In this document: one piece after another, positions 12,066 to 43,121 of the stretch | How the letters are laid out: each line of letters opens with the position of its first letter | Numbering within the stretch: position 1 is the first letter of the stretch | Assembly (NCBI GenBank): GCA_035610835.1 | Contig: CM069454.1 | Span: forward strand, 57,890,580-57,954,579 | Reading direction: 5' to 3' | Source of the DNA: Ophiura sarsii | Lineage: Eukaryota; Echinodermata; Ophiuroidea; Amphilepidida; Ophiuridae | DNA length: 64,000 nt | Translations under genes and position numbers: made by a program | The notes under the pieces: model-generated | What the model was told of the DNA's origin: nothing | Seen by the model: only the letters and a program-made list of their open reading frames with translations | The model's database searches: none

Positions 12066-12066
12066 A

Positions 12067-12133
<67 letters not shown>

Positions 12134-16672: not shown

Positions 16673-16676
16673 TTTC

Positions 16677-18139: not shown

Positions 18140-18669
18140 CTCAACACACATGTCAAAACATCAGTGGTTGGCTCGCAGAAATTTTCTTCTAAACTTGTAT
18201 TATCGTCCTGTGGAAAGTTTGTCCATGAGTAGTCTGAATCAAAATCCAAATACTGCCACTGATAAGGACACTCCGCATGGAATTTACGACACTCCTCGCC
18301 GTATTTACACTTCTTGTTGCGCAACATGATTGGACAGATTTCACGAGCCTTAAGAAGGGTAGAAGAACTTGTGGAGGATCTGACACTGAGGCTTTTCTTC
18401 CCGGTGAGTCCAGCAGATAATTGCTGGGTAGCCATACGAACAGCAGGTCTCTGTTTTGCTGCAGCACAAGCCGCATTGGTGGTCAATTTAAAATCAGTTC
18501 CAAGTTTTGGTCTACGTAGAAATAGCTGCGTTGTATTTTCAACAATGATTTTAATTTGTTCAATTGAATGCGTCGCGAAGAACCCATATGGAGTTGGTCC
18601 ACCTATCAAGAAGGTATGGTATTCTCTCTCTAAGATATCACTATTTATGGCACGCCTGATTTGTAGCAC
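18140..18669 (-). CDS. Module B exon 4: WWE end, CCCH finger, WWE start (PARP12/ZAP-like)
   Basis: A 530-nt exon between a TATACAG acceptor (right) and a GAG|GTATGC donor (left), entered in phase 0 and leaving two bases over. Residues about 9-55 (INSDILEREY ... LFLRRPKLG) match the second half of a WWE domain. A serine-rich basic linker follows. Residues about 110-131 form a C-x8-C-x5-C-x3-H zinc finger (ICPIMLRNKKCKYGEECRKF, then H). CPYQWQYLDFD then starts another WWE domain, cut by the intron. WWE domains in PARP12/ZC3HAV1/TIPARP-type proteins bind poly-ADP-ribose, and CCCH fingers bind RNA. The phase fits module B exon 3. No disruption is seen in this exon. Confidence 0.8.
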
Positions 18670-19384
18670 CTGTATAAGATATGGATACAGAGAGTAAACA
18701 AAATGCTCACCCCAAACCCGACCTCTGGGATTTCAACAAAAATGCGGAGGGACAAGATGACCCAATAAATCGTTGCAAATCATCACTCTGCGACCGGGAA
18801 TGTATCTGGGCCACCCTCCGCCGCACATCAACCCGCCAGCCTGCATATAAGAAAGCCACAACTATCACAGCTTCACGTTCGCATAGTATACCACGCTCAT
18901 TATATAGGCTTGGTAGATTGCGTCAACGAAAACTGTCCACGCATGCGCTGGGAGAGTCTCTGACGTGGTATTTTGTGGTGTTTGGTAGGGGTAGGGTTAT
19001 GGCGACAGGAAAAAACCCTGATCTATTGGCCTGACTGACCCAAAAAAAAATTTAAATTATAATTTTATGTTTTTACGATTTTATTAACTACTAGGCCTAT
19101 ATCATGTATATTAGTATTGTAAATTGATTGATAAAGCAAAAAAGTACATTTTTTTCAAAATCAAACCACAAACACTAAATTTTACTCAAAACATATGAAT
19201 CTTAGGTGTTCACCTAAGCAGCCCATGCTGACCACTAAACCACATGCGCTTTTGGTACATGCCGATGACGCCCAAATTCGCTTAAAAAATCATAGCTCAA
19301 GTTCTATCCAACTTTTTAAAAATGTAGAAACTGATTGATAACGCTGACATATTTCTTTCAAACAACATATAAATATTACATTTG
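18670..19384. other. Intron interval without recognisable element
   Basis: This lies between module B exon 4 and the duplicated block. 18720-19000 is balanced in base composition and has a fortuitous open frame; 19040-19384 is AT-rich. No coding, RNA or repeat signature is recognised. Confidence 0.5.
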
Positions 19385-19863
19385 TAAAAAAATATTCTGG
19401 GCCGTTCTACAATTTATTTATATCCTAGTTTGGCATGTTTTTGGGTCATTTTATGCTGCTATATTTAAGAAATTGCGGTTTTTTCTTGATGGTTGTAGTA
19501 ATTTGGGCGCCATTTCCAAACCGTGTATGAAATCAAAATGTAGAAGCGCAGACACGCACGGGAACTGCCCTCCTAAGTAGTCCCTTAAAATCAATCCGAT
19601 TGGATAATATATGACACCGTACATCTTAAGGACCAATCATCGACTGCAAAAGTAAATTTTCAGTAAATTTTCAGTGTTGGCATGGCACTTATAAAACTCG
19701 CCCATTGCTTGTGTGGTAGATTTCGATCACGACAGGAGCATGCGCAGATGCGATTTTTGTTTAAGTGGTCTGTGATTTTGTCAATATTATATTTTTACTG
19801 TGATTTGTCGATCTGCATTAAATGCAGTAAATGCAAAAAGTAACAACGCCCCCGGCTGGACTC

Positions 19864-19903
<40 letters not shown>

Positions 19904-20877
19904 AATTGCGCCACGGAGGTGATTATTTACTAGGCTGTTTTGGTTTGTCATGTTCACCCGTACACTTCCCCGTACACTTTCTTGCAAAGTCGGGCATCGT
20001 TTTTTCTCAAATGTTGCTTGCATATTGCCTTTGCTGTCGCCTTTAATACATGTGCTGTCACTTGAACTTGGAACCAATGTTTAATTTGAACTGTCTATTT
20101 TCAATAAAAAAATACTCCAATACGGGAAAAAAATCAGAAAAGCTCACAGACAACAAATAAGAACATCATTTTACTCGACCTAGAATTTCAATCAACGGAT
20201 TTCAATCATCGGCAAAACCCAATGATGTGAGTGACGTCATTTAATGAGCTCATTAGCATAATTTATGTCCGTGAAATATACAATAGGGTTTTGGTAGTGC
20301 ATGGCTGGTCACCGTGGTCTGTGTGACCAGTACGGGCACCAAAAGAACCAGTGTTTACCTTCTATTGTCCAACTCTCAAATTGGTTATCGATTGGTCAAC
20401 ATCAGTGAGCCATAGCTCATACAGCAATGTATACTGTGTATATACTGCTTATGTTAGGTGAACAAAATAACCGTAATAAGATTCATGTGAAATGACAAAT
20501 AGTGTATTATAAAGCAAAATTAAGTGACCATGATAATGTGGTTTGAGGCTGAACTGAAGGTCATCAGTGAGCAGCTGAGGTGTATAGAAGTATTCATGCA
20601 AAAAATGAGGACATTTTGCCTGTAAAGCCAGTTAACACACCCCTAGTATTTTACCATTTCAAAGACACTTTTTAAAATAGCACCCCCTCCCCCTCTTATT
20701 TGTGCAAAAACGAGGACACATTTGGTTCAAAATACTCCCTTTATCAATGTATGCACAGAGGAGCAGACATGGGGTCTTCAAATATAATAGGCCTACCAGT
20801 TTTGTTTTCTTTTAAAAAAACACACCTCTAAGTTGGGGCAATTGCAGACATTTATCATCCGCGGACACTCCCCTTTT
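19385..20877. repeat. 1.49-kb duplicated block, copy 1
   Basis: This matches 22974-24466 almost base for base over about 1490 bp, with an exact offset of 3589 bp. The few differences seen include one base near 19555 and one near 20176. It contains a tRNA-Asn-like gene at 19847-19920. The high identity implies a recent duplication or transposition. Copy 2 lies inside the foldback element, so the sequence appears to have moved. Confidence 0.93.
19847..19920 (-). tRNA. tRNA-Asn (GTT)-like gene, copy 1
   Basis: 74 nt on the minus strand fold as a cloverleaf. The D arm is GCGC/GCGC around AATTGGTTA. The anticodon stem is TTCGG/CCGAA around CTGTTAA (anticodon GTT). The variable loop is AGGTT. The T arm is GGTGG-TTCGAGT-CCAGC, and the acceptor stem is ACCTCCG/CGGGGGC. 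Box A (TGGCGCAATTGG) and box B (GGTTCGAGTCC) are intact, and a TTTTT terminator follows about 10 nt downstream. Two mismatches (positions 1:72 A-C and 50:64 G-G) suggest decay, so it may be a pseudo-tRNA. No CCA is encoded. Confidence 0.82.
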
Positions 20878-21214
20878 CCGCGATTTGGGAACCGTCATGC
20901 ATACACCCAAAGTCAATGTCAACTGAAACCAGCAGGAAAAATATATCCTACTGATAAAAAGGTGCCACAAATCCCCATAATATGAACTTTCAATGCCATG
21001 AGCAATATAAGCTCAACAACCCCCACCCCACCCCAAGTTTAACCCCAATTGATAGTTTTGATTATTATTTAAATAGATATGCTATGTAATTAGAAATTTA
21101 CAATTTTGCGTAACTATTGGAGAAATGTTATATTATTTCCTTTCATTAGTTTCATCAATAAAGAAAAGGCCTTAACCCTTACTCCCCTCCGTTTGTTGAT
21201 CAAAACCTTAATTG
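20878..21214. other. Intron interval, no gene seen
   Basis: AT-rich with short CCCCACCCC runs. The first bases (CCGCGATTTGGGAACC) continue a dispersed repeat that uses CGCGGACA phrases and also appears around 58400-58700. No coding signal is seen. Confidence 0.45.
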
Positions 21215-22973: not shown

Positions 22974-23452
22974 TAAAAAAATATTCTGGGCCGTTCTACA
23001 ATTTATTTATATCCTAGTTTGGCATGTTTTTGGGTCATTTTATGCTGCTATATTTAAGAAATTGCGGTTTTTTCTTGATGGTTGTAGTAATTTGGGCGCC
23101 ATTTCCAAACCGTGTATGAAATCAAAATGTAGAAGCGCAGACACGTACGGGAACTGCCCTCCTAAGTAGTCCCTTAAAATCAATCCGATTGGATAATATA
23201 TGACACCGTACATCTTAAGGACCAATCATCGACTGCAAAAGTAAATTTTCAGTAAATTTTCAGTGTTGGCATGGCACTTATAAAACTCGCCCATTGCTTG
23301 TGTGGTAGATTTCGATCACGACAGGAGCATGCGCAGATGCGATTTTTGTTTAAGTGGTCTGTGATTTTGTCAATATTATATTTTTACTGTGATTTGTCGA
23401 TCTGCATTAAATGCAGTAAATGCAAAAAGTAACAACGCCCCCGGCTGGACTC

Positions 23453-23492
<40 letters not shown>

Positions 23493-24466
23493 AATTGCGC
23501 CACGGAGGTGATTATTTACTAGGCTGTTTTGGTTTGTCATGTTCACCCGTACACTTCCCCGTACACTTTCTTGCAAAGTCGGGCATCGTTTTTTCTCAAA
23601 TGTTGCTTGCATATTGCCTTTGCTGTCGCCTTTAATACATGTGCTGTCACTTGAACTTGGAACCAATGTTTAATTTGAACTGTCTATTTTCAATAAAAAA
23701 ATACTCCAATACGGGAAAAAAATCAGAAAAGCTCACAGACAACAAATAAGAACATCATTTTACTCGAACTAGAATTTCAATCAACGGATTTCAATCATCG
23801 GCAAAACCCAATGATGTGAGTGACGTCATTTAATGAGCTCATTAGCATAATTTATGTCCGTGAAATATACAATAGGGTTTTGGTAGTGCATGGCTGGTCA
23901 CCGTGGTCTGTGTGACCAGTACGGGCACCAAAAGAACCAGTGTTTACCTTCTATTGTCCAACTCTCAAATTGGTTATCGATTGGTCAACATCAGTGAGCC
24001 ATAGCTCATACAGCAATGTATACTGTGTATATACTGCTTATGTTAGGTGAACAAAATAACCGTAATAAGATTCATGTGAAATGACAAATAGTGTATTATA
24101 AAGCAAAATTAAGTGACCATGATAATGTGGTTTGAGGCTGAACTGAAGGTCATCAGTGAGCAGCTGAGGTGTATAGAAGTATTCATGCAAAAAATGAGGA
24201 CATTTTGCCTGTAAAGCCAGTTAACACACCCCTAGTATTTTACCATTTCAAAGACACTTTTTAAAATAGCACCCCCTCCCCCTCTTATTTGTGCAAAAAC
24301 GAGGACACATTTGGTTCAAAATACTCCCTTTATCAATGTATGCACAGAGGAGCAGACATGGGGTCTTCAAATATAATAGGCCTACCAGTTTTGTTTTCTT
24401 TTAAAAAAACACACCTCTAAGTTGGGGCAATTGCAGACATTTATCATCCGCGGACACTCCCCTTTT
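22974..24466. repeat. 1.49-kb duplicated block, copy 2
   Basis: Near-identical to 19385-20877 at a constant offset of 3589 bp. It ends abruptly against foldback-arm sequence on both sides (GACAATTTT on the left, GGAAGGGCGG on the right). Confidence 0.93.
23436..23509 (-). tRNA. tRNA-Asn (GTT)-like gene, copy 2
   Basis: Identical in sequence to the copy at 19847-19920, including the GTT anticodon, both internal promoter boxes, the downstream TTTTT and the same two stem mismatches. It was therefore duplicated with its block. Identity between copies is explained by recency and does not show function. Confidence 0.82.
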
Positions 24467-25168: not shown

Positions 25169-25210
25169 TACATGTACAGGATATATTGGGGATTTCCTAA
25201 GTGATAAATT

Positions 25211-25762: not shown

Positions 25763-25770
25763 ATACCTAC

Positions 25771-26630
25771 GGCATTAACATTAGTTTCACCATATAAAAA
25801 AAGATTTATCAGAAACCATTCCCATTCCGTCAAAGTCTATCTCAAGGATTACTGAACTAATACTAGGCATGTTTGTACTTATTTCAATACAATTCTCACT
25901 GTGATTCCAAATAATTAAATAATGTTGACATTTTTGAAACATTTTATGATATTTTGGAATGTCGTCTGCAGATGCTAGTGATGCTTGTAAAGTGTTAAGC
26001 ACACTAAGGTAAAGCTTATGGAAGTATCCTGATCGAAAAAGTGTAGATTTTAACTGTCTGATTAGTATATTTAGAGATCAGTATCAAACCAGAACCATTT
26101 GTAATCCATTTTAATTACATGTATAAGCTTTTGTGGGGGTACTGAGATTAATTGAGGGACAGCCATGCCAAAGGAGGGGTCTGTGGTACTTCCTAAATAT
26201 TTACTATATCCTCACTAATAACCCCTGTCACTAAATGAAATAATCGCAATGACTTGTTTTGAAAAAGAAAAGGCCTTAACCCTAACCTCACCAGAGGCCA
26301 CAAAAGGCCACGGCAAATAGCTCTTGTACCGCATGGTTCACGGTTCTATCTTGTGGCACAATCTGTCAAGTCAAATGGTCTCGAAAAAGTTAACTTTTTT
26401 GAGCTCCCCTGTTAGATTTTGAGTCACTGTCTAAACATCCTGTGACTTCCAAAGCTGGATGAGTCATCCCCCACCTTCACGTCTGACGACCTGATCATAT
26501 ACTATGAGTTTTGCAAAAATTCAGTTTTCAGAAAACCAATTTTCAGGCCTTTTAGAGTACATGCAAAAAGCAACCCATTTGGGCAGTATAAATGTGAGTA
26601 TACTAAGCCCCGCCATCGCCCCCCCCCCCA
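25771..26630. other. Intron interval with dispersed repeat
   Basis: 25795-25920 (AGATTTATCAGAAACC, CTAGGCATGTTTGTACTTAT) is related to 56480-56580, so it is a dispersed repeat of unknown class. The remainder up to the poly-C runs at 26620-26670 shows no gene. Confidence 0.5.
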
Positions 26631-26701
26631 GTACCCCCAGCCACCACCCCCCCCCCCCCCCCCCCCCCCACCCACCAATGTTCCCACCATACATGACTTA
26701 C

Positions 26702-26900
26702 CCCTGTATGACACTCTTTATAGCGTTCAAAATAAAAGTTCCGGTAATACCAATGCCAATGTGTGCAGACAGTGTCCATCCTCTTATTCCTATTCTTGAC
26801 ACTGGACATGGTAGAGAGTCGTCGTATCTTGAGAGAGTCATCAAACGTACTCTGAGGAGCCAGTGTCATAGTAGTAAACTTAACATCATAGGTTTTGCCA
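26702..26900 (-). CDS. Module B exon 3: end of WWE 1 and start of WWE 2
   Basis: A 199-nt exon with acceptor TTCCTTGCAG|T and donor GGG|GTAAGT. One leading base completes the glycine codon left by exon 2, and it ends in phase 0. It encodes GKTYDVKFTTMTL, then KIRRLSTMSSV, then VCTHWHWYYRNFYF. In PARP12-type proteins an RRLST-SSV link joins the first WWE to a second WWE that begins with a W-x-W-Y core, and that is what is seen here. The length is exactly compatible with the flanking exons, so this exon appears intact. Poly-C runs start within 40 bp of its donor. Confidence 0.8.
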
Positions 26901-26929
26901 CTGCAAGGAATAGAAGAAAAAAACCAATT

Positions 26930-27025
26930 GTTTAAGAAGATGTGTACAAAGACAATGACACAGTCCATCCTCTTATTCTTATTATTGGCACTGGTCATGG
27001 TGGAGAGTCATTGTATCTCCTAAGA
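26930..27025 (-). pseudogene. Partial degenerate copy of module exon 3
   Basis: About 90 bp just upstream of exon B3 on the minus strand repeats the middle of that exon: LSTMTSANNKNKRMDC against LSTMSSVKNRNKRMDT. A stop replaces the RR pair, and the tryptophan core and splice sites are missing. It is a fragment of a local tandem duplication. Confidence 0.75.
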
Positions 27026-27054
27026 GCAGGCCCATAACTAGGGGGTGCGGGTGG

Positions 27055-27375
27055 ACGCCCCCCCCCCCCCCCCCCCCAAATCTGAAAAAGTCCTTTTTTT
27101 GTACCAATGTACCTTTTTTTGTTGTACCAATGTACCTTTTTTTGTACCAATGTACCTTAATGTACATTTTTTTGTGAAAATGCCCCCCCCCCCCACCCAA
27201 ATTTTCGGGAAAAGCCCCCATTTCCCATTGTGTAAAGCAGCTTTTGCCCCCCCCCCCCCCCCCCCCTTCTCAACATTTCTGAGATGACTAAAAAAATGTT
27301 TGGGGCAACCTTTTACGATTTTTTGGGGTACCAATGTACCTTTTCAAAAAAATACGCCCCCCCCCCCCCCCAAAA
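27055..27375. repeat. Poly-C runs and ACCAATGTACC repeats
   Basis: Four poly-C runs of 11-20 bases (about 27059, 27182, 27247, 27357) alternate with four copies of ACCAATGTACCTTTTTTTG-like sequence. Proline-rich and glycine-rich frames here are artefacts. Confidence 0.9.
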
Positions 27376-27408
27376 AAAAAAAATCCTGCTTACGGGCCTG
27401 CCTAAGTA

Positions 27409-28720
27409 ATGCACTTATCAATTGCAGTCCCGGCCCCGGGGGACCCGGGGCATGGCGGGGACTATGCGGGGACCGTACGCCAACGTACAAAAAACATGGC
27501 CCGGCTATGCGGGGACGTATACCCGGGGCGTACAAAACGTGCCCCCGCTAGCCGGGGCTTGTAGCCGGGGCATAGCGGGGACGTACATTACTGAAAAAAT
27601 AGGCCGGGCATTGTAGCGGGGGCGTACGCTAGGGTACACAAATGTACACCCCGGGGCATAGCCGGGGCGTACACATACATAGCGGGGACGTACGCTAAGG
27701 TACAAAAAATGTACACCCCGGGGTATAGCCGGGGTGTAAAAAACCGTGTACGCACACATAGCGGGGATGTACGCTAAGGTACATATCATCCACACCGGTG
27801 CATAGAGATATAAAATACAGACATGCACTATATTAAACTTTAAAATTAGTCACCTCGATTGATCAATACCTGGATTTTCACTACCATGACTACGGTAAAC
27901 TTAGTACAATTTGACCATATAGTGCTTTTGCCTGGAATAATGTACATGGTAGGCCCGGACAGATAGACAACACCTACCTACTTGCAGGCCCGTAAGTCAG
28001 GGAGGGAGAGCCCCAACCCTCTATTCCCCCTCCCAAGTCCCCAAGAAGGTCCAAAATACCCCTCCCAAGTCAATTAGCTAGATCAATCATCATGTTTTCG
28101 GTTCATTTTTAAAACTTAAATAGGCCTACTGTTTGTTCATAATAAATAAATTGGATCAAAACTTTCCAATGTTGCCATTGGGTACGCATGATATATCAAA
28201 AATAAAGCGACACAATATGACATCCATAAAGTGATTTTTTGACTCGATTCATTTCTGGTTGACAACAAACTGAGATAGATCATGCCAAAATTATTGTATT
28301 TTTAGTTTTAGGCCTCTGGTAAGTTTTGTTCTGGAGCACTGTATAATTTAAAAACTATTCACAAAACCATAGAAGTCAACGGTAAATCATGAAACCGTGT
28401 AACATAATAACGATTCGCTAATATTGGCCCGGCTGTCTGAGGCCGGGCGTACACTATGCCCCGGCTATGGGGGCCGGGACCGTACGCCGTCGTACACTTT
28501 GTCCCGGCTATGGGGGGCCGGGACCGTACGCCGGCGTACACTTTGTCCCGGCCATGGGGGGCCGGGACTGTAGCGGGGGCGTACAAAAAGTGGTGCCCCG
28601 CCCTGCGGGGACCGTACACGACTGTAGCCGGGACGTCACATCGGCAATTTGTACGTCCCGGCCCTAATCCCCGCTATCCCCGGGTCCCCCGGGGCCGGGG
28701 CTGCAATTGATAAGTGCATA
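27409..28720. mobile_element. GC-rich element with inverted termini
   Basis: It begins ATGCACTTATCAATTGCAGT followed by CCCGGCCCCGGGGG. It ends in the reverse complement, ..CCGGGGCTGCAATTGATAAGTGCAT, giving termini of about 45 bp. The body has GGGGCATAGCGGGGACGTAC-type repeats near both ends (27430-27800 and 28430-28710) around an AT-rich middle. At 1.3 kb, with GC far above the surroundings at its ends, it is probably a non-autonomous DNA transposon. A decayed relative lies at 34825-35030. Confidence 0.85.
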
Positions 28721-28808
28721 AGAGTCATCTCTAACTCTGATTGAGAAACCATAGAAGTCAACTCAAAATCACAGGGGAAAAAACATGGCAGCAGCGATAT
28801 TGTATGTA

Positions 28809-30390
28809 ATACACCCAACAAAATAATGTAAGTTCCCACCTAGCATAGCATATTTCCAAAAATATTTGATGGATTTAAATAATTTTCAGCTAGAAAGATG
28901 CACCCAATTGCTAGGCACATTTTGATACCAAATTTGTTGGCCTTGAGACAATGCAACAATAAGAAATTGTGCCATTTACCAATTTTATACAGAAAACAAA
29001 GTGGCACTAAATCTCACTGGCTATGGCTGGTTTTGTCCATAAATTAACAGACATTTTCTTTGTGGATTTTCGTGCACAGACATGGGAATCTACCAATCAA
29101 TTGTGTGGCAAGCTCGTCGGATTATGAGTGACATGGCAATTTGGTCCGATCATGAGTGACATGGAAATTTGGTCTGATTATGAGTGACATGGCAATTTGG
29201 TCGGATTATGAGTGACATGGCAATTTGGTCCGATTATGAGTGACATGGCAATTTGGTTCGATTATGAGTGACATGACAATTTGGTCCGATTATGAGTGAC
29301 ATGGCAATTTGGTCCGATTATGAGTGACATGGCAATTTGGTCCGATTATGGGTGACATGGCAATTTGGTCCGATTATGAGTGACATGGCAATTTGGTCCG
29401 ATTATGAGTGACATGGCAATTTGGTCCGATTATGAGTGACATGGCAATTTGGTCCGATTATGAGTGACATGACAATTTGGTCCGATTATGAGTGACATGG
29501 CAATTTGGTCCGATTATGAGTGACATGGCAATTTGGTCCGATTATGAGTGACATGGCAATTTGGTCCGATTATGAGTGACATGGCAATTTGGTCTGATTA
29601 TGTGTGACATGGCAATTTGGTCTGATTGTGTGCGACATGGCAATTTGGTCCGATTATGAGTGACATGGCAATTTGGTCCGATTATGAGTGACATGGCAAT
29701 TTGGTCCAATTATGACTATGAGTGACATGGCAATTTGGTCTGATTATGTGTGACATGGCAATTTGGTCTGATTGTGTGCGACATGGCAATTTGGTCGGAT
29801 TATGAGTGACATGGCAATTTGGTCTGATTATGTGTGACATGGCAATTTGGTCTGATTGTGTGCGACATGGGCAATTTGGTCGGATTATGAGTGACATGGC
29901 AATTTGGTCCGATTATGTGTGACATGGCAATTTGGTCTGATTGTGTGCGACATGGCAATTTGGTACGATTATGTGTGACATGGCAATCTGGCAATCTGGT
30001 CCGAGTATGAGTGACATGGCAAAATGGTCTGATTATATGTGACAATTTCTTTAGCAGGATTTGAACCAGTACCCGATCAAATTGATCTTTCTTTGTGTAT
30101 TATGTGTTATTATGCTACCGTGTCTTGGTCCACAAGATTATGATCTGCTTATTGATTTTCTTGAAATGATGCACAAAACCAGCCATAGCCAGTGCTTTTT
30201 TCTGTATAAAAATTGGTAAATGGCACAATTTCTTATCGTTGCATTGTCTCAAGGCCAACAAATTTGGTAACAAAATGTGCCTAACAATTGGGTGCATCTT
30301 GCTAGCTGTAAATTATTTAAATCCATCAAATATTTGTGGAAATATTCTAGTATATGCTAGGAGGGAAGTTACATATTTTGTTGGGTGTAT
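28809..30390. mobile_element. Inverted-repeat element enclosing a 28-bp satellite
   Basis: The left arm 28809-29090 (ATACACCCAACAAAATAATG at the tip; inside, GGCACATTTTGATACCAAAT) is repeated in reverse complement at about 30140-30390, with tip ATTTTGTTGGGTGTAT. Between the arms is the 28-bp array. The motif GGCACATTTTGATACCAAAT is shared with the element at 38781-39415, so the two may belong to one family. No coding sequence is seen. Confidence 0.85.
29105..30045 (+). repeat. 28-bp satellite
   Basis: About 33 copies of TTTGGTCCGATTATGAGTGA + CATGGCAA. The right third alternates ATTATGTGTGACATGG and ATTGTGTGCGACATGG variants, forming a young dimeric or trimeric sub-period. Translations such as HIIRPNCHVT repeats are artefacts. 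Confidence 0.97.
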
Positions 30391-30659
30391 GAACTGTACA
30401 CTTTTGATCCATATCAGGAAATTTTACTGTTGCTGAACGTATCCTGAACTGAATTAATGTGGAGGCTTTATTTGGAGAAATCTCTTGATCCTTGACCTTA
30501 TTTATGTGCAGGAAATATCATTTCTCTCTTTCTTTACATGGTTGGGGTGTCCCTTTATGACTTTACAAACAGGATTCAATTAATAAGGGCCCATCCAAAA
30601 TGACTGAAAAAAGAAACCCTGTTCCAGGCCTGATACTGACCCATTTAAAAAAAATACTG

Positions 30660-31540
30660 CAAGTCACGACTTACAAATCCCCTGGGCTGGGAGATTCACC
30701 TAAATGGGTCAAAGGTCACCTAGCTAGTTTCATTAGAGGTCAATCTGGGTACACCCAAAAGTCATCTCAAATCCCCTTACCCATGTTATTGTCACCAAGT
30801 TTAATTGAGATTGAAGTCTGACTTTTCATATGGCCCCTAAAGTTCTGACAAAATAGGTCAAAGGTCTTGAAGGGGTCATTACAGGTCAATCCGGTATACC
30901 CCATGTATCATCTCAAGTCTCCTTACCTAAAGATTATTGCTACCAAGTTTGGCCAAGATTGAAGTCTGACTTTACTCAACTTTTTTGGGGGTAGGGGTGT
31001 GCTGCACAGGGTCTCAAAATGGGGGCTACAGAACTGAACTAAGTGGATTTTATGACAACAACAAATAGGGTCTTAGGAACTGATTTTTTTCTTCAAAAAA
31101 GTAGGTCTTGAGAACTGGCTATAGTTCAATTTTGATTAGCAAGAATGCAAATGTTTGATTTTTTTGGTTTTAGAACCCAACTTTTTTCAAAAAATTGGGG
31201 CTTTGGAACGCAAAATTTGGCGATTTTTGTATTTTCAATCAAATTGGGGTCTTTTAAGAAGAACTGATGCAGGCTCAAAAGGGGGGTCATCAGACCTAGC
31301 AGCAGAGGGTGCAAAAAGGGGGTCTTCAGCGTGGCACATACCTATACTCTTTTCCAATGTCAGTGCCCCCCCCCAAAAAAAAACCAGCAGCAATAAGTTC
31401 AGTTTAAAGTGTTGGCAAAATGTGGTCAAAGGTCATGTAGGGGTCATTAGAGGTCAATCTGTCTAAACCCCATGAGCATCTGAAGTCCCCTTTACCCAAA
31501 GATTATTGTTATACCAAGTGTGGTTGAGATTCATATGGCA
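30660..31540 (+). repeat. Degenerate AGGTCA-rich dispersed repeat
   Basis: Three diverged units (about 30690, 30845, 31410) read GGTCAAAGGTCA, then GTCATTAGAGGTCAATC, then ACCCAAAGATTATTG, then CCAAGTTTGG. The AAAGGTCA/AGGTCA content is a weak relative of the DR1 repeats at 13.4 kb in opposite orientation. 31000-31370 interrupts the series with lower-complexity sequence. Confidence 0.7.
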
Positions 31541-32458
31541 AACTTTGTTTGAGCCAATTTTTCTCATTAGTAATTCCCACACAAGTCCTGTGTGTGTACA
31601 CCGTTCTGGTTGCAATGCAAATTATGCTCTATCCAGGTCAGCGCACATCAAAATCCTATTGATATACATGCGATTTCTTTGTATTGAGGCTTCATTTTGT
31701 CATGCTGAGTGCACAAATGACCTCGCATAACGCTCAATTTGATTGGATTGGAAAAATAAGGATTTCTTGTTTCTCTCTGTCCGACAAAAGTATAGCCACC
31801 AATCATGGCCATTTTCACAAATAACCTGAAGAAATACATTTGGCAAGGAATGCCACATTCTACTTGGTCAAAGGTTATTTATTTTATGAAAAGGCGTGAA
31901 GTTGAGCCTCGATATGTCCCATGCGTAAACAATGATGTTTACGCCAAGCAAAAGTTGTACACATCATTTGTAGAAATCAGGGGTGGATGGTTATTTTCTT
32001 TGAAATTAAACATACAGATTGGCATAATACATTCTACTTCGGCGTTTTCATTCAGCAACCAATTTTGTGAAAAAATTGAAAAAATTGCCCAATAGCCAAT
32101 ACATGGTGATCGTGCCATGAGTGGAGTTGCAAGTTAGTGGGCATGATGACTAATGACTATAAACGAAAACAACAACTGTTCTACGTGCCCAACCGACCCC
32201 CCCCCCCCCCAAAAAAAAGTATTATTTTGGGAATTCTTTTTATAAATATTGAATTTGTTCCCCTTCAAATTCTTATTTTTTTTGAAAAATTGTTGTAAAT
32301 TCACCAAAATAACAACAATTTTGAAACAATCAAGAGGAAAGATATGCCTGACAGACCGACCCTACCTGAGATCGAGGTTCGTTTGCCCGTAGAACAGGGT
32401 TTTTTCTGTTGCCTAATCTACATTGCACATGGCATCAATTGATTGATTGAATTCTTAC
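31541..32458. other. Intron interval, no gene recognised
   Basis: This contains an unremarkable open frame (31805-32095) with no recognisable domain, and one poly-C run at about 32196. It includes a CCGACCCTACCTGAGA phrase also found near 37520. There is no other feature. Confidence 0.45.
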
Positions 32459-32770
32459 CCTTCTTTAATCATCGTACTGCTGACATTAGGGTCACAAAAC
32501 GAAGCCTCTACACTTATGTTGTTTGCCTGATCCAGATTCCACCAGTTATTATAGTGGCCAGCCTGCCATTGAAACGGTAACCTGGCTACATGAAGTTGAG
32601 GACACTCTTTCCAATTTCGACAATGACCATATTTTACATAGTAAATACACAATTCCCGCTGCTGATTTTCATCTGGCAGTTCTGGGGTGTTGTTCGTTGA
32701 CTCCCTACATGCACTAGGCATGCCTGGCGTCCTCTTGTGTCGAGGTCTTATGTTTCTTGCATTCCTTTGG
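32459..32770 (-). CDS. Module B exon 2: CCCH finger and start of WWE 1
   Basis: A 312-nt exon between TTAAG|C and GG|GTAAGA. One leading base and two trailing bases leave 309 in frame, so it is intact. A basic N-terminal stretch (RNARNIRPRHKRTPG) is followed by a C-x8-C-x5-C-x3-H finger (LCIYYVKYGHCRNWKECPQL, then H), then the WWE opening RLPFQWQAGHYNNWWNLDQ and ISVEASFCDPNVS. In vertebrate PARP12/ZAP the last CCCH finger directly precedes the WWE region in the same way. The 5.6-kb intron before exon 3 holds most of the mobile elements of this section. Confidence 0.82.
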
Positions 32771-34471
32771 CTTAATTTGTTGGATAATTAAACAAATAAT
32801 ACACATATTAGACAGCTGTAACAAATAATACTTAAAGATCCCCAATATTTTGTGACTCCTCCTCTATTTAAAACCAAGTGATTTAATCTCTATGGTCTGA
32901 TCCCCCCCCCCCCCCCCCCCCCCCATCCAATTTTGTTGGTTTGTATTATACAGGGTGTCCCCAACTTATTTTGAAGGATCTATATTTTTACTTTGACACA
33001 ACCCATTACAAACATGTTTGCACATCCTGAAAATCTTTAAATCTCTACTTTTTGGGGGCGAAGCCACCCTTATAGCATCAGATTGCAACACATTACACAT
33101 TTAGGTCTTTCTAGACATAAGTGGGGGCAGCCATGTTTGTAGTCTTTGTAAATTACATATACCTATGCAGTTTATTTTAACAGTCCTGCAGTCTGTGATG
33201 GAGTCAAAGCTTGTTTAGTTGATGCATAGACTGTTGATGATTCATTCAGAGAGATGTTTATTAGACTCCCCACAGAGAGACATAATAGCTTATCTTGTTT
33301 GACCACAGATGGTTAGCTGTGGATGTTTGAGTTTCGGGTTATAATAATAATTCCTGGGTTGATTTAATGAAATGTTAATACGGATAGGATAACCATGATC
33401 GCGGAATGCCACTTTTAATTAGTATTATAGCAATTCCTGGACCAAACGTGTTAGACCAAGTACAATGTCATATATACCTAATTGTTCTTCAGACGGTCTC
33501 CCCCCCCCCCCCCCCCCCCCCCCCCCTCCATGCAAATAAATCAACTTTATTGGTTTACTGTACTATTTTTAGTGCAGTGTTTTGATTTGTTTTTTTGGTT
33601 TGAATTATGAAAAATACATACACCATATCCCTGGTATTTTGGTATGCAACAGATGCTTCAGAAAATGGTTACAAAACATGTTTCTTTCTTTTGGATCGCC
33701 CCCATTACATTTCAATGGAATTTTTATTATTGGTGACATAAAATCAAGATGCATAAACATCAGAGCTCTGTCAAAATTAGTTTTCTGGGACACCTGATTT
33801 GTAAATCTGATCATCTTTGGATGTGGTGTTTATATGTAATGTCTCAGTGGTGTAGCCAGAGGGGGGCAAAGGGGCAATCGCCCCCTCCCCCTCCCAATAT
33901 TTGAGCCGTGTCAGTTGGCACTGTCGGTTGTTATCGAGAGCTCAATTTTTGGGGGATCATGTCACTGTAATGTCCAATGGGCAAGCATAGTGATAATAAA
34001 ATTTGTATGCTCAGACAGTTTGCATCCATGCCCCACACGGGTATGTGCGGCTGCCAGGACTCCTTTTTCACGCCTTTCGGCCGCTCCGTAAGACCCCCAT
34101 AAGTCTTTTTAGTACTTAGAATCTTTGGACAACAATTATTTGTTTGGTACCAATATTTCAAAATGACCAAAAAGTGAGTAGAGGTCTTCAGGTTGTCAAC
34201 CCTAGATTATTCTCTATTGATTTAGCCTTAATTTAAAAAGCAAGCAAAACAAACATACCCACTTCTACATATTTTCTGCACTTTCATGTAGGGTTGGTGA
34301 ATTTCTGTGTTTTCATTCTCAACAAGTTCCATACAAATTTAACAATTTTAAAAAAAATCAAAAATTAGTAGAATCTTTTTCCGTTTTTTTAAATTTCAAA
34401 TATTTGGGTTGGTCGGGCCTGTAAAACAGGATTTTTTTTCTCTTTGTCCTATAGCTACTATGTTGACTTAC
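32771..34471. other. Intron interval with poly-C runs
   Basis: There are poly-C runs at about 32904-32923 and 33500-33527. A TATACAGGGTGTCCCC phrase at 32948 resembles the ends of the element at 63251. Dispersed repeats with CGGGTATGTGCGGCT (34040, again 35205) are present. No further exon is seen. Confidence 0.5.
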
Positions 34472-34698
34472 TTTGCATTTGAGATGGTATTGGTATATTC
34501 TTCCTCAGAGTCTCTCTCTTCCTCTTCCTCTCTTTCAAGCCCATTTTTGTTTTTGCTTTGAGAAGATTAAGGAGAAATTTTGTGTCTTGAACACTCCAAG
34601 GATCTAAGGCATTCATCCGTAAAATGTGGCTCATTTGAGGCGAGGTAAAGCTGTGGTTGAAGTGACAGTGATAACTACAGCTTCCATCAATAAAGGCG
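34472..34698 (-). pseudogene. Module B exon 1: CCCH finger exon, frameshifted
   Basis: The acceptor CTTGCCAG|C and donor AA|GTAAGT match module A exon 1. The finger reads AFIDGSCSYHCHFNHSF, so the spacing between second and third ligands is C-x3-C instead of the C-x5-C of module A, a loss of two residues in the zinc loop. DPWSVQDTKFLLNLLK follows. The length is 227 nt: after one leading and two trailing bases 224 remain, not a multiple of three. The acidic tail (EREEEEERDSEEE) is open only in another frame. The shift falls around 34535-34555, in an A/T-homopolymer stretch, so a consensus error cannot be excluded. Confidence 0.75.
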
Positions 34699-34824
34699 CT
34701 GGCAAGATAAAACAAACAAAAAATATCGTTGCTGTTCTGTCAAAACCTTGTATGTTTTTCCGGTCCAGCCCTTCCATATAAAGTATTACTGCCCAACAGA
34801 TGCATGTTGCTTTATACATGAGGG

Positions 34825-35030
34825 CCATGGGACGTACAAAGTGTGTCCCTGCTAGCCAGGGAGCCTGGGACGTACAGGGATATTATACGCACAAAACTTA
34901 GTGATCCCCCCCCCCCCTGACAGGCCAGGCAGTGTAGTGACTGTCATGATACCCAAACGGGTGCCCTACCCGTCATATGTCCCACTATCCCAGGTCCCCT
35001 GAGGCCAGAGTTGCAATTGATAAGTGCATT
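34825..35030. mobile_element. Decayed relative of the GC-rich element
   Basis: It ends in TTGCAATTGATAAGTGCAT and contains GGGACGTACAAAGTGTG-type phrases as in the element at 27409-28720, but with many substitutions and a poly-C insertion. The left terminus is not evident. Confidence 0.65.
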
Positions 35031-36104
35031 AACACACAAACAGGGTTGTAGCTAGAGCAATTCTATAGTGCCGGGCTCCAATTTCCCCAGCCTGAAGTCC
35101 ATGGGGCCAAATATTGATGTATTATGTGATCAAAAAGGGGAAATACCATACCTTTCACCGGGGGGGGGGGGGCTACTCACGTATATTGGCCATATGGCTA
35201 CGGGTATGTGCGGCTTTCGGCTGCTCCGTGCCCCCTTTTCATCCACTGGCCGTTCCATAAGACCCCCTTTTCATCCATTGGCAGCTCCCTTAGACCCCAA
35301 ATTCAACCACCAAATCATAAAATGTGTGAAAATCTTATGAATTTGAGTTATGTAGCCTCAAATTTGGCCTAAATTCAGTTCATAAGGCAACATTTTGCCT
35401 AAAATTTAGTTTATGAGACACAGTGGCGTATACAGGGGGTCCAGGGGCAGGGGGTCCAGGCCCCCCCCCCCCCCCTGGAATAACCCTTTGGTAAACACGA
35501 CCCTCCGTCGGTAGATTTGCGATTTTGACCATGCAATTTTTTCTGCCGGTTATGTGAACAACCTCATCGCTACCCCCCCCCCCCCCCCCTTCCCCCACTT
35601 ATCAAGGTTTCAGCTGCTGACGGGAAAAAATTGTGGAAGTTTTACGAATTTTTTTTGGGAGTCTGTAAAAAGAATTGTCGGTACATCATGCCTTTCGTCA
35701 GTACATACTGTGGTCGTGCCCCCCCGCCCCCCCCCCCAGTTTGAAAAATCTGGGTTCGCCACTGATGAGACACAATTTTGTATAAGAATTCAGTTCTCTA
35801 AGACCCCAATTTCGGCAACCGTTCAGTTCCGTAAGCCCCTGTTTTGGTGCCCGTTCAGTTCGGTAAGCACCTGTTTTCAGACTGCCCAGCCGGGGGACTT
35901 TCATTGACTGTAAGTGCCGGGCCCAAATTGCTAGTGCTGATGGGTGGCCCGCCCGGTGCCACACATGTCCAACAACGTCTGAGTAGTTTCGACTCGGACG
36001 CCTGCCTATTTGATATTTGTCCATGATCATGAAGCATTATTAGGGCCAATGCAGTGGCGGCGCGACCATAACAAAATTGAGGGCGCAATAAGAAATTGGA
36101 TGAG
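35031..36104. other. Interval between modules, poly-G/poly-C and dispersed repeats
   Basis: Poly-G at about 35161; poly-C at 35461, 35573 and 35722. Phrases such as CAGTGGCGTATACAGGG (35421) and GCAGTGGCGGCGCGACC (36050) resemble ends of hAT-like MITEs. The exon expected after module A exon 4 (second half of a WWE) was not found. Confidence 0.5.
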
Positions 36105-36204
36105 NNNNNNNNNNNNNNNNNNNNNNNNNNNNNNNNNNNNNNNNNNNNNNNNNNNNNNNNNNNNNNNNNNNNNNNNNNNNNNNNNNNNNNNNNNNNNNNN
36201 NNNN
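36105..36204. other. Assembly gap of 100 N
   Basis: Exactly 100 N, the usual placeholder for a gap of unknown length. It lies between the two zinc-finger/WWE modules, where module A's missing downstream exons would be expected. Confidence 0.99.
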
Positions 36205-36686
36205 AATTATTTTTACTACTTTGTTATTAAAATTGGAACAAGATGGCTTCAGAAATGTTTTCTGTACCTTTTTAGTATTTAGCATTTTTTGCACGTTAGC
36301 AAAGCAATTCCCCTGTTGAGCTTTTAAACAATCTATACTTGAATCAGGAAAATATGCTCAACTTCTTTCTTGGATTGACAAAAAAAACAAAATATTTATT
36401 GGAATGAAGAGGTGGCTTTTCGATAAAACTTTGGTCAAAAGTATACACCAGATCGCACCAAATGAGTTCCAAAATTGAAATTTTTTCTACTTCTCAGGGG
36501 GGCACATCCCCCTCAGACACCCCCCTGTGCGAGCATAGCTCGGAGGGCGGTGCCTGTGCACCGCTTGGATGATACCTGATCAATTTCATTTTTTTGGACC
36601 GCTCCCTAACATTTTCTGGATCCACGTCTAGTGTCCCCCCCCCCCCCCACTTCTGAAAACGGGATGACGCCCTTGGGTATAGCTAC

Positions 36687-37332
36687 CTCAATGCATATTG
36701 CAAAGCATCAGTGGTTGGCTCGCAGAAACTTTCTTCTAAACGTGCATTATCATCCTGTGGAAAGTTTGTCCATTTTCGATATTCAGTATTTAAATACTGC
36801 ACTGATAAGGACACTCTGAATGAAATTTACTACACTCTTCGCCGTATTTACACTTCTTGTTGCGCACCATGGCTGGACAGATTTCACGAGCCATAAGAGG
36901 GGACGAAGCACTTGTGGAGGATAAACTGGCGCTGAGGCGTTTTTTTCTCGGTGAGTTCAGCAGACACTTGCTGGACAGCCTCTTTAGGAACAGCGGGTCT
37001 CTGAGAGAGAGCCAAAAGTGTTGGTGTTGACACTTCCTTGCTGTCTCAACCTGTTTTGCTGTAGCACCCTGATTGGTCAATTCAAGATCGGTTTCAACAT
37101 TTGCTGAAGCCCTAGACTCTTTCACAGGTCCTGATTTCTTTTCTTCCACTGTGTAAAGTGTTGGTCTTCGTAAAAGGTCCAGTGTTGTACTTCCTACAGT
37201 GATACTAATGTGATCAATTGAAACTGTTGGAAAGAACCCATATGGATTGGGACTATCTTCCTGATGCTGGAAGGTACGGTATTCCCTCTCTAAGATATCA
37301 CTATTTATGGCAAGCATGCTATCTGGAAGCAT
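36687..37332 (-). pseudogene. Module A exon 4: WWE end, CCCH finger, WWE start, frameshifted
   Basis: The acceptor TCTACAG and donor GAG|GTAGCT are at the same places as in module B. Entry in phase 0 gives INSDILEREYRTF and LLRRPTLYTVEEKK (WWE end), a linker longer than in B, then a C-x8-C-x5-C-x3-H finger (ICPAMVRNKKCKYGEECSKF, then H) and CPYQ. At the first conserved WWE tryptophan one base is missing (near 36800; module B has the extra C on the plus strand). This turns the TGG codon into a shift with an early stop. The exon is 646 nt where 647 would keep phase. Inside the linker, two compensating indels relative to B keep the frame open. Confidence 0.8.
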
Positions 37333-37937: not shown

Positions 37938-38140
37938 CTCCGTATGGCATTCTACATAGCAGCATTCCAAATAGTAGAAGTACCAATGCCAATGTGTGCA
38001 AACAGAGTCCATCTCCTCATTCCTATTCTTGACACTGGTCATGGTAGAGAGTCGTCGTATCTTGTGAGAGTCATCTGAACAACTCTGAGAAACCAGTCTC
38101 ATAGTCATAGTAGTAAACTCAACATCATAGGTTACGGCCA
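37938..38140 (-). pseudogene. Module A exon 3: WWE 1 end and WWE 2 start, frameshifted
   Basis: The acceptor CCTTGCAG|T and donor GAG|GTAAGT are conserved. TYDVEFTTMTM, KIRRLSTMTSV and VCTHWHWYFYYLE correspond to module B exon 3. Near 38133-38138 the plus strand reads GGTTACGGCCACTGC where module B has GGTTTTGCCACTGC: one extra base, directly inside the exon start. The exon has 203 nt; 202 would match both neighbours. Read from exon 2, the frame meets a TGA within five codons. Confidence 0.8.
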
Positions 38141-38244
38141 CTGCAAGGAAGAAAACAAACATTTATTCGTCTGCTCACAGCAGCGGTGTACACCCAGGAT
38201 TTTATTATCAGGGGCGCGACTTGTGACCAATGCCGAACGCAGCA

Positions 38245-38481: not shown

Positions 38482-38584
38482 CGGGGTCCTGGATTTGAGC
38501 TTTAGAGGCATATTGCTGGCTTCTCTTGACCTATTTTTTGTGTGCAGGCCGGTCTTGCCTATTTATTTGATAACATTTGGTTTT

Positions 38585-38610
38585 TAACGGGGGGGGGGGG
38601 GGGGGGGGGG
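38585..38610 (+). repeat. Poly-G run
   Basis: About 22 consecutive G, the longest G run in the window on the plus strand. Confidence 0.97.
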
Positions 38611-38780
38611 GCTCAAGAAGGGGATGACCTTTTGTACCTGCACAACCAATCCAGCTTCAGAGTTTTTGTTTGTATTTATTAGTACATTTTTTATATTGGA
38701 AAAGTTGGAACATGCATTTTGTAAATTTGAAAATTTTCAAAAAGAAACTCTGAGTGATTATAGTAATTGAATGAATGATT

Positions 38781-40159: not shown

Positions 40160-40468
40160 CCTTTTTTAATCGTCGTTTGGCTGACATTAAAATCACAATA
40201 TGAAGCCTCTATAGCTCTGTTGGTCGTCTGATCCACATTTTCCCAGCTATGATTGCGGAAAACCTGCCATTGAAACGGTAACCTGGAAACATGAAGTTGA
40301 GGGCACTCTTTGCCATTTTGACAATGACCATTTTGTATGTAGTAAATGCACAATTCCCGCTGCTGGTTTTCATCGGACGGTTTTGGGGTGTTGTTCGTTG
40401 CCTCACTAGGTGTGCCTGGCTTCCTCTTGCGTCGACATGGTCTGTTCCTAGCATTGCTTTTGCTAGGG
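40160..40468 (-). CDS. Module A exon 2: CCCH finger and start of WWE 1
   Basis: A 309-nt exon with acceptor ACCAACAG|C and donor GG|GTAGGA, one leading and two trailing bases, so it is in phase. A basic N-terminal stretch (SNARNRPCRRKRKPG) comes first. A C-x8-C-x5-C-x3-H finger (LCIYYIQNGHCQNGKECPQL, then H) follows, then SRLPFQWQVFRNHSWENVDQ and IEASYCDFNVS, the first half of a WWE domain. It is very similar to module B exon 2 (shared DENQQREL) and looks intact on its own, although the next two exons of this module are disrupted. Confidence 0.82.
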
Positions 40469-40579
40469 CTGTTGGTAAAATACAAAATGATTAAAGAGGG
40501 TTGACATTTCTTTCAGAGCTGTTACAAGTACGCTGATAAATATTTTCCAGATTTTGTGACCCATCCTCTAATAAAACCA

Positions 40580-40930
40580 AATTGTGTGCGAATGATCCAA
40601 GCTTAACAAGATCGCTTCAGGAACTTTTTGTGGGCCGCTTTAGTTAAAAAACTGAAAAATGTTGATCCTTCGCGCGATTTAGTTTTAATGTTTCATTATT
40701 CAAGCTTAACAATATACTAGTTACTACAGAAAAGTTTTTTCGAACCATTTGAGTGTTAAAATTGCCATTTTTTGCACGCTATGCGCACATTAGTTTCAAT
40801 GTCTCATGATTCAAGCTTAACAAGATGGCTTCAGGAAGTTATCTGGACCATTTTATTTTTAAAAAATTATCTTTTTTCGTGCTTCTCGCGAATTCGTTTT
40901 TACACTTCATTGCTTAAGGGGGGACTCAAG
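40580..40930 (+). repeat. Degenerate tandem repeat of about 110 bp
   Basis: Repeated AAGCTTAACAAGATGGCTTC followed by AGGAA and a TTTTTGCACG/TTCGCGCGA section, with starts near 40598, 40710 and 40815. Relatives occur at 36232, 41514 and, inverted, 58730, so it is a dispersed family. Confidence 0.7.
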
Positions 40931-41515
40931 GAAGTTACTTTTTGGATTTTGTGAGTGCTGTAATTATTGAACTATGACTCAAATGTATATAAAAGTATAC
41001 ATTTTTGGAAAGGAAATGGGTCGGATAATCCAAATTTTGGGTCAATTTTGACTATAAATGTTGATTTTTTGAGAAAATCACAAATAATCAATTTTTTGAC
41101 CCAAAAAAGTGCAACAAAGCTAACAAAAATAATTTTGAGTAAAAAATTCCCAAATTGCTAGATTATGATGTAAAGACACTAACTTATGGACGATTTTTTT
41201 TTAAAACCCTTATCTAATATTTTTGAAATTTTGACCAAAAAGTGACAAAAAAGTGATTTTTTTATTGGCCCTTTTTGGTCAAAATTTTATAAAAAAATAT
41301 TAGAAAGTTTAAAAAAAAAAAATTGTCCCTAAGTTAGTCTCTTCACATCATAATATAGCAATTTGGGAATTTTTTACTCAAAATTATTTTTGTTGAACTT
41401 TTTGGGGTCCATTTTTTTTAGCTGATCCATTTGCTTTTCCAAAAATGTATACTTTTATATGCATTCAATAATTACAGCACTCACAAAATTAAAAAAAATC
41501 AAGTCAAAAACTTCC
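40928..41515. mobile_element. Foldback element with arms of about 270 bp
   Basis: The left arm starts near AAGGAAGTTACTTTTTGGAT and TTTGTGAGTGCTGTAATTAT. The right arm closes with ATTACAGCACTCACAAAATT and AACTTCCTT. Inner landmarks (TATACATTTTTGGAAA, AAAAATAATTTTGAGTAAAA, TTATGATGTAAAGA) recur in reverse complement. There is almost no unpaired centre (about 41265), so single strands would form one giant hairpin. Confidence 0.87.
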
Positions 41516-41814
41516 TTAACAAGATGGCTTCGAGAAATGTTTTTTCTGGACCAAATATGAGTTGATGAGGTCTGAAATGGCTTAGAAATGCCCTCAGAGA
41601 GCGTCTAAATTCAAAGATTTCTTGGGACCCTAAAAGCGGGCCTAGATATAGCCGTGGTAAGCCCCGCACCATCCTGCACACGTGTATGCAGATTGCGTTT
41701 GTAATTAATAATAATATAAAAATGCAACCCTCACAGTGTCGTCTTTTTAAAGAACATTTCATTACCAAAATTGTGTAAACTGCATTAAAACACACAATAA
41801 AATGCATCAGTGTT

Positions 41815-41904
41815 AACAATTCGTCGCTGTTCTGACATACCGGCACATCTCTTTACTTATTTCTGTTGTGATGTGCCGGTATGTCAGAACAGCGACGAAT
41901 TGTT
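41815..41904. repeat. Perfect 35-bp inverted repeat (hairpin)
   Basis: 41815-41849 (AACAATTCGTCGCTGTTCTG, then ACATACCGGCACATC) is exactly complementary to 41870-41904, around a 20-nt loop. Perfect pairing over 35 bp in 90 nt is far beyond chance. Confidence 0.96.
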
Positions 41905-42421
41905 GTCTTATTTATATTAAAATTGATGGAATGGAAATCATCACTCGAATACTTCAAAATGTGTTAGCGTGTCAGGCAGGGGCTTGCCCCCCCCCCCCCC
42001 CCCCTGGCCCCCACAAAGGGGCTTGCACCTGTCAATCCTGCTGGGGGGTTAATACCTCAGGCCAGGGCTTGAATTAATCGAAGGCATCAAAGGCAATTGC
42101 CTTCGATGCCCCACCTAGTTGCCTTGATGCCCTCAAATTATGGATGTTTTCACTCCATTCAAAAGTACATAATGGCCTTGGATAAAGTTGGTGCCCCTTT
42201 CAATTGCCTTAAATCGCCTGCCCTTTTCATTTCATATTTCAAGGCCTGCCTCAGGCCCCCTCCCCAGATTTGGTCGCACCAATAATAAATTGCTTCCGAC
42301 GGGCCTGTTATTAATGGCTAATGGCAAGCATATACTGATTGTGAAATTTTGTGTGCTTGAAAGAAAAATTGAGCAGGGTTTTTTTTGTATGATTTTTGAT
42401 CCATGCCTTTTTGATCAAAGA

Positions 42422-42789
42422 TTAAAGGTATATTATGTGATCTTTTCCAGGGAACGCCCTCAATCCTCGAGAAAAAATTGAAAACAGCTTTTCTTGCAGA
42501 TTTACATTTCTGATTGTAAATCGTACATACATTCCAAGTTACAGGGTGATACGATTCTTAATTACTTCAAAAATCATGGTTTTAGAGTCTGCGCTGACAA
42601 CTTATTATTACTCTAAATTCACTCTAAAACCATGATTTTGAGGTAATTAGGAATCATATCGCTCTGAAACTTGGAATGTATTCATGATTTATGATCAGAA
42701 ATGTAAATCTGCAATAAAATCTGCTTCCAATTTTTTTTTTGAGGATTGAGGGCGTCCCCTGGGAAAAAAATCACATAATATACCTTTAA
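42422..42789. mobile_element. Palindromic MITE with TTAA target (piggyBac-like)
   Basis: TTAA followed by AGGTATATTATGTGATCTTT at the left, and the reverse complement ..ATCACATAATATACCT followed by TTAA at the right. Pairing continues through CCAGGGAACGCCCTCAATCC and, more loosely, to the centre (ATCATGGTTTTAGAGT / CTCTAAAACCATGATTTTG). At 368 bp with TTAA flanks it suits a piggyBac-derived MITE. A partial copy lies at 10720-10939. Confidence 0.88.
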
Positions 42790-42857
42790 ATGTGATCATA
42801 ATGATTCAAAGCACTATTTTTTGGTGAATTTTCAAAACATTTCAAAAATGTACCTAC

Positions 42858-43121
42858 TTCGTACTAGATGCATTTGAGATACCGGTAGTATCCTCTTCTT
42901 CCTCCTCTTCATCTTCCTCAGAGTCTCTCTCATCCTCCTCACTTTCAATTTCCTCTTTGGTTTTCGGGTTCGGTTTGAGAAGATTTAGGAGATATTCTCT
43001 GTCTTCATCGTCCTGAGGATCTAGGTCATGCTTCCGTAAAATCTTGATCATTTGAGTTGAGGTAAAACTGTGGTTGAAACGACACTGCTGAGATGATCTA
43101 CAGCTTCCATCAACAAAGGCG
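42858..43121 (-). CDS. Module A exon 1: CCCH finger and acidic linker
   Basis: A 264-nt exon between CTTTCCAG|C and AA|GTAGGT, one leading and two trailing bases, in phase with exon 2. AFVDGSCRSSQQCRFNHSFT gives the C-x5-C-x3-H part of a finger whose first cysteine must lie in the preceding exon. QMIKILRKHDLDP and REYLLNLLKP resemble the helix that follows CCCH fingers in PARP12/ZAP. The rest is a highly acidic linker (SEEDERDSEEDEEEEEEDTT). No earlier exon was found to the right, so the gene's 5' end is missing from the window or unrecognised. Confidence 0.78.

Follow-up and report, generated by a model that had tools for sequence, protein, structure and literature searches.

A 64,000-nucleotide stretch of the genome of the brittle star Ophiura sarsii (the window; GenBank assembly GCA_035610835.1, contig CM069454.1, hereafter C14, positions 57890580-57954579) very probably carries parts of two same-strand genes of the PARP12/ZAP type, A (exons 0-4) and B (exons 1-4), which belong to an array with at least 17 PARP exons in 1.45 Mb. 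Judged from sequence, intact members of this array would bind RNA with their fingers and read poly(ADP-ribose) (PAR) with the second of two units, each made of a zinc finger (ZnF) and two WWE domains, and mono-ADP-ribosylation is predicted for their catalytic domain.

Exons of the two window genes

An earlier note on this DNA had proposed eight spliced minus-strand exons, A1-A4 and B1-B4. Their borders were checked for AG/GT splice sites, and all eight are real exons by this measure, each with AG/GT borders. One exon of A had been missed and is added here as A0. The features, in window positions, are as follows.

48852..48976, minus strand: exon A0 (previously missed), with ATG and one CCCH finger, and also the Cys that opens the following finger
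42858..43121, minus strand: exon A1, remainder of the second CCCH finger and an acidic tail
40160..40468, minus strand: exon A2, with a CCCH finger (C-x8-C-x5-C-x3-H) followed by the first half of WWE1
37938..38140, minus strand: exon A3, second half of WWE1 and first half of WWE2; its entry phase mismatches A2
36687..37332, minus strand: exon A4, which completes WWE2 and adds a CCCH finger and half of WWE3 (the first); after the finger the frame shifts
36105..36204, no strand: 100-N assembly gap between A4 and B1, where the 3' part of A and the 5' part of B are both missing
34472..34698, minus strand: exon B1, finger and acidic tail, the tail out of frame
32459..32770, minus strand: exon B2, with a CCCH finger followed by the first half of WWE1
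26957..27019, minus strand: relict of part of exon 3, containing a stop and lying immediately upstream of B3
26702..26900, minus strand: exon B3, second half of WWE1 and first half of WWE2
18140..18669, minus strand: exon B4, which like A4 completes WWE2 and adds a CCCH finger and the first half of WWE3

Exons A1-A4 are each homologous to their counterparts among B1-B4, as the earlier note had seen, with 184/220, 247/300, 165/192 and 430/516 identical bases per aligned bases in exons 1-4. The finger of A0 has the spacing C-x8-C-x7-C-x3-H, and a second in-frame ATG lies 36 bases upstream of the A0 ATG. The GT donor of A0 leaves two bases and A1 opens with one, so the phases fit, and the finger formed jointly by A0 and A1 reads C-x7-C-x5-C-x3-H. 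A0 is also conserved in sister loci (82% of residues against the sister gene P described below, E 3.2e-24). Gene A therefore has four fingers (A0, A0/A1, A2 and A4), and B has three, the first incomplete; the B1 finger has two residues fewer than A1 between its second and third Cys.

Domain searches of the exon joins returned both CCCH and WWE domains. In Pfam, the B2-B3-B4 join scored 43 bits for WWE_4 (cut-off 24.5) and 35.3 bits for WWE (cut-off 21.1), and the A1-A2 join 30.4 bits for zf-CCCH (cut-off 20.5). A0 joined to A1 reached 29.3 bits for zf-CCCH_PARP12, above the cut-off of 27, and a Pfam domain search with B1 alone gave no match. Among solved structures, A0-A1-A2 matches the RNA-binding domain of ZAP (6uei, E 2e-8), and the B2-B4 join matches the ZnF5-WWE1-WWE2 domain of ZAP (7sz2, E 1.5e-8; 7kzh, E 1.5e-6), which bears out the kinship with PARP12 and ZAP. 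The domain content given earlier for each module holds, except that the exon 1 finger is incomplete and takes its first Cys from the missed exon 0. The modules are also not open throughout: the phases of A2 and A3 mismatch and both A4 and B1 change frame, while B2-B3-B4 (346 residues) is the only clean single frame among the window joins. Chance exon-like frames were considered and rejected, since the same exons occur in the same order at sister loci outside the window.

An intact sister gene and the duplicated unit

Sister gene M lies on the minus strand 98 kb left of the window (C14 57792830-57758833). It has nine exons whose splice phases all agree and which encode a single frame of 2,337 residues (7,011 coding bases) with its sole stop at the end. 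Its layout is finger-finger-(finger-WWE-WWE)-(finger-WWE-WWE)-PARP-tail, with the two leading fingers in exons 0-1, a finger, WWE1 and WWE2 in exons 2-4, a finger, WWE3 and WWE4 in exons 4-6, and the PARP domain and tail in exons 7-8. The four fingers were assigned by Cys/His spacing. Pfam gives 77.9 bits for PARP and 70.3 bits for WWE across three stretches, and the best PDB match is the PARP12 catalytic domain (2pqf, E 8.5e-42). The two ZnF-WWE-WWE units of M align over 206 columns with 28% identity (E 7e-25, one-against-one comparison); unit 2 matches human ZAP 7kzh (E 2.9e-22) and unit 1 matches 7sz2 (E 3.9e-7). The unusual order of fingers and WWE domains described earlier is thus explained by a duplication of the central domain of ZAP (ZnF5-WWE1-WWE2), one copy in exons 2-4 and one in exons 4-6, and the window displays one and a half copies of it. 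A relict of exon 3 similar to that before B3 precedes exon 3 of M.

The tail of M is Ser/Thr-rich and repetitive and spans 1,519 residues. Very long Ser/Thr-rich tails with repeats of about 50-66 residues follow the catalytic exons at C14 57763812-57758833 and 57859321-57857333, both on the minus strand.

A second sister, P, on the plus strand (C14 57806-57839 kb), has the same nine exons, with a GC donor at exon 7. M and P each carry one set of exons 1-4 and continue to exons 5-8 with the PARP domain. They stand head to head (M minus, P plus; C14 57758-57839 kb), with about 13 kb between their first exons. Two further copies were read in part: copy T on the plus strand (C14 57985-58015 kb), with exon 0, parts of exons 2 and 4, and exons 5-8, and the copy at 57748 kb, whose exons 5-8 are spread over 28 kb (C14 57719925-57748444). 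This spread indicates that long introns are usual here.

Two branches of the array meet in the window

Gene A is closer to P and gene B to M. In exons 1-4, identical residues are 65/81, 83/102, 55/64 and 144/211 between A and P, and 39/53 (B1 before its frame change), 72/85, 62/66 and 162/176 between B and M, against 31/51, 64/98, 46/61 and 105/165 between A and B. The introns follow the same division, those of A aligning to P and those of B to M, with tandem repeats making up part of the aligned blocks. Outside the exons, aligning A with B yields the exon-3 relict and hits of 20-27 bases, and nothing else. This kinship of exons and introns suggests that A and B derive from two older lineages within the array. 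Of the two alternatives offered in the earlier note, tandem paralogues therefore agree with the introns, and one gene with an internal module duplication is rejected as first choice by the intron kinship and by the sisters with their single sets of exons 1-4.

The earlier statement that no catalytic exon is seen is correct for the window. Searching the genome (1,573,662,873 bases, 748 contigs) in six frames with PF00644, which scored only the best candidates, placed none of its 51 listed matches inside the window, and a Pfam scan of the three minus frames found no PARP exon in 8200-18138, 26600-36500, 43000-52900 and 54100-63999. The statement does not extend to gene B as a whole, as exons 5-8 of B were found 25-33 kb left of the window edge.

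C14 57865698-57865497, 57863982-57863756 and 57860680-57860462, minus strand: exons 5-7 of B
C14 57859321-57857333, minus strand: open frame of B exon 8, the catalytic exon, in which a deletion removes the LWHGT stretch and the frame

Of the 51 listed PF00644 matches, 17 (11 plus-strand and six minus-strand) fall within C14 57233433-58684776, a 1.45-Mb stretch of a single chromosome. Eleven catalytic exons were read, ten from the array and one on the small contig C571; where aligned, they share 86-92% identity with the catalytic exon of M. The remaining seven of the 17 array members are known as PARP matches alone. The PF00644 search also lists a 2,200-residue frame at C14 57327019. The exon on C571 (29012-31921, minus strand; loci L029 and L030) is of the array type and lies in a 970-residue frame that continues into a ZU5 domain (45.1 bits, cut-off 21). 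A possible Death domain in this frame scores 14 bits, under the cut-off of 22.6. The frame is thus a PARP-ZU5-Death-like fusion.

Catalytic residues and the PAR pocket

The motifs LWHGT, GSYF and IFVIF correspond to the His, Tyr and Ile of PARP12 in the 2pqf alignment. LWHGT, with its His, is present in 10 of the 11 catalytic exons read, and GSYF and IFVIF in all 11. Mono-ADP-ribosylation is predicted because all three residues are kept in these ten exons. The one exon without the His stretch is that of B, whose catalytic domain would be inactive, like that of ZAP.

Human ZAP binds PAR via its second WWE domain, for which W611 and Q668 are required, and binding raises antiviral potency (PMC8853533). 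Unit 2 of the array genes retains the Trp. P, T and the 57748-kb copy retain the Gln as well, whereas M and B have a Tyr at that position. Unit 2 is thus the likely PAR reader, although this is doubtful for the B branch. In unit 1, which lies whole in the window, Tyr or Phe stands in place of the Trp and an Ile aligns with the Gln. Since both residues that contact PAR in ZAP are replaced, unit 1 is unlikely to bind PAR by the mode known from ZAP. In an intact member, the two leading CCCH fingers of exons 0-1, which are akin to the RNA-binding fingers of ZAP, would hold RNA, the second ZnF-WWE-WWE unit would read PAR, and the catalytic domain would mono-ADP-ribosylate targets.

Are genes A and B intact?

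Several findings weigh against the assignment of A and B to an array of working PARP12/ZAP-type genes. Across 2,815 coding bases, the window exons of A (0-4) and B (1-4) hold three length differences that break the frame (the A2-A3 phase mismatch, the A4 frame change after the finger and the B1 frame change in the acidic tail), and the deletion in the catalytic exon of B shifts the frame as well. The assembly has no exons 5-8 for A and no exon 0 for B. Among the sisters, P is frame-broken in exon 6, and the fingers of M stay below the Pfam cut-offs (zf-CCCH 15.6 against 20.5, zf-CCCH_PARP12 22.1 against 27). The array is also counted by catalytic exons; other exons were sought in four further loci only, where M and P are complete and T and the 57748-kb copy partial. 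Given their frame breaks, A and B may be relics or mis-sequenced.

Whether birth-and-death turnover in the array has left both genes as dead relics is, in our view, evenly balanced. Decay is suggested by the three frame breaks, compared to none in the 7,011 coding bases of M, by the missing His stretch in B, by the loss of one end from each gene and by the exon-3 relict. The ratio of nonsynonymous to synonymous substitution rates (dN/dS) between A and B in exons 1-4 is 0.57 (bootstrap 0.42-0.81) and speaks against it by being below 1, although this value mostly reflects time before any decay. The ratio for exons 1-4 ranges from 0.57 to 0.68 across six comparisons and is 0.20 (0.09-0.40) for exons 5-7 between B and M, which indicates that the front half evolves faster than the back half.

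Alternatively, both genes might be intact in the animal, with the breaks and missing ends being faults of a nanopore draft, which we find possible but doubtful. The 100-N gap sits at the missing ends, B2-B3-B4 is open, and exons 5-7 of B and M are strongly constrained, as given above. The draft of the brittle star Amphiura filiformis is reported to have an error rate of 0.000684 per base (PMC11310086), a benchmark that may not be that of the present genome. If it applies, 1.9 errors are expected in the A and B exons (P of three or more, 0.30), which fits draft faults and weakens the case for relics. The same rate predicts 4.8 errors in M, however, where none that breaks the frame is seen (P 0.008), so M is clean at equal draft quality. 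Furthermore, the deletion in the catalytic exon of B is too long for a usual base-calling error, and this deletion in exon 8 is probably real.

The missing ends could also mean that A and B are one gene, formed when a deletion between two neighbours brought A0-A4 next to B1-B8, with A4 spliced to B1 in a single long transcript. We consider this fusion improbable. It would explain why A has a start without an end and B an end without a start, and the earlier proposal that A4 and B1 could splice in phase is correct as far as phases go, as A4 leaves two bases and B1 opens with one. However, the join would cut two domains, placing a half WWE3 without its exon-5 part before a B1 finger without its first Cys, and M and P carry single sets of exons 1-4. 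The sequence around the gap can be read both ways. Exons 5-8 of A were not found between A4 and B1, up to the gap, and exon B0 was not found near B1. Upstream of B1 the sequence tracks that of M to within about 60 bases of the donor of exon 0. In the remaining 1,033 bases before the gap, a 23-base hit is the sole match to M. This resembles a rearrangement; either the stretch is inserted and B0 lies beyond the gap, or the breakpoint is genuine. The join also spans an assembly gap, and a second 100-N gap (C14 57975185-57975284) nearby cuts a catalytic exon, and exons 1-5 are absent from between this exon and an exon 0. Sequence is therefore likely hidden at the 100-N gaps of this region, and we retain two separate genes, A and B.

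Other features of the window

The long intron of B is broken up by a satellite of 91-92 bases at 1-6876 (75.6 copies) and 14642-16672 (22 copies), on opposite strands. It also holds a reverse transcriptase fragment (9704-10558, minus strand; RVT_1, 82.6 bits), which we guess to be of a non-LTR-like type. Two tRNA-Asn (gtt) genes, at 19846-19921 and 23435-23510, lie 3,589 bases apart in a duplicated block; a comparison of 300 bases gives 98% identity between its copies. Inside intron 0 of A, 26-base tandem repeats occur in inverted orientation at 43559-44025 and 46784-47157.

Relation to PARP12 and ZAP

The array genes resemble PARP12, a vertebrate mono-ADP-ribosyltransferase, in their CCCH fingers, ZnF-WWE-WWE unit and His-Tyr-Ile catalytic domain. 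They differ in having two leading fingers where PARP12 has four, in the second ZnF-WWE-WWE unit, in the long Ser/Thr-rich tail and in forming an array instead of one gene. With ZAP (ZC3HAV1, PARP13) they share the RNA-binding fingers and ZnF5-WWE1-WWE2, most clearly in unit 2, whereas ZAP has five fingers and one ZnF-WWE-WWE unit. The catalytic site of ZAP is described as vestigial (PMC8853533), in contrast to most array exons read; the loss of the His stretch in B parallels ZAP, via a different change.

A 2021 survey lists homology, five CCCH fingers, WWE domains and a C-terminal PARP-like domain as marks of ZC3HAV1/PARP12 orthologues, and states that invertebrates typically have one ZAP/PARP12-related gene (PMC8102003). 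The brittle star genes show the sequence homology and the WWE domains, and also the finger-WWE-WWE order of the ZAP central domain within one unit, which they have twice. The PARP-like domain is present in M and P; that of B lies outside the window with the His stretch deleted and the frame shifted, and in A none was found as far as the gap. The number of fingers falls short of five (four in A, three in B with the first incomplete, four in the intact M). By the five-finger rule of that survey, the array members class as PARP12-like genes and not as orthologues.

Lineage-specific duplications of PARP12-like genes are reported in frog, fishes and lancelet (PMC4245714); compared to these, the brittle star has far more copies, in one 1.45-Mb cluster and with a duplicated reader unit. 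We found no report of the doubled ZnF-WWE-WWE unit or of an array of such size in the open-licence literature, and the main text of the A. filiformis genome paper (PMC11310086) contains neither "PARP" nor "ADP-ribos". PARP12-like genes are thus known already, as are their rapid evolution (PMC4038475) and, in certain lineages, their duplication, while the doubled unit and the array size are apparently unreported.

Few antiviral RNA sensors have been followed from cnidarians to humans; ZAP/PARP12 is one of these, and PARP12-like genes reportedly evolve fast. The brittle star is not known to have interferon-type vertebrate immunity. By homology with PARP12 and ZAP, the intact members likely serve virus defence. 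Tentatively, the locus might be an immune-type ZAP-like array in which the RNA fingers and unit 1 vary fast, unit 2 and the mono-ADP-ribosyltransferase stay constant, and the ends are exchangeable (Ser/Thr repeats, or ZU5 and possibly Death in one copy). Diverse RNA sensors would then be wired to ADP-ribose and perhaps to cell death, and reader-only copies like B would repeat the activity loss of ZAP. An array with at least 17 catalytic exons and a doubled PAR-reader unit would offer a natural experiment on sensor diversification and on the loss of enzyme activity.

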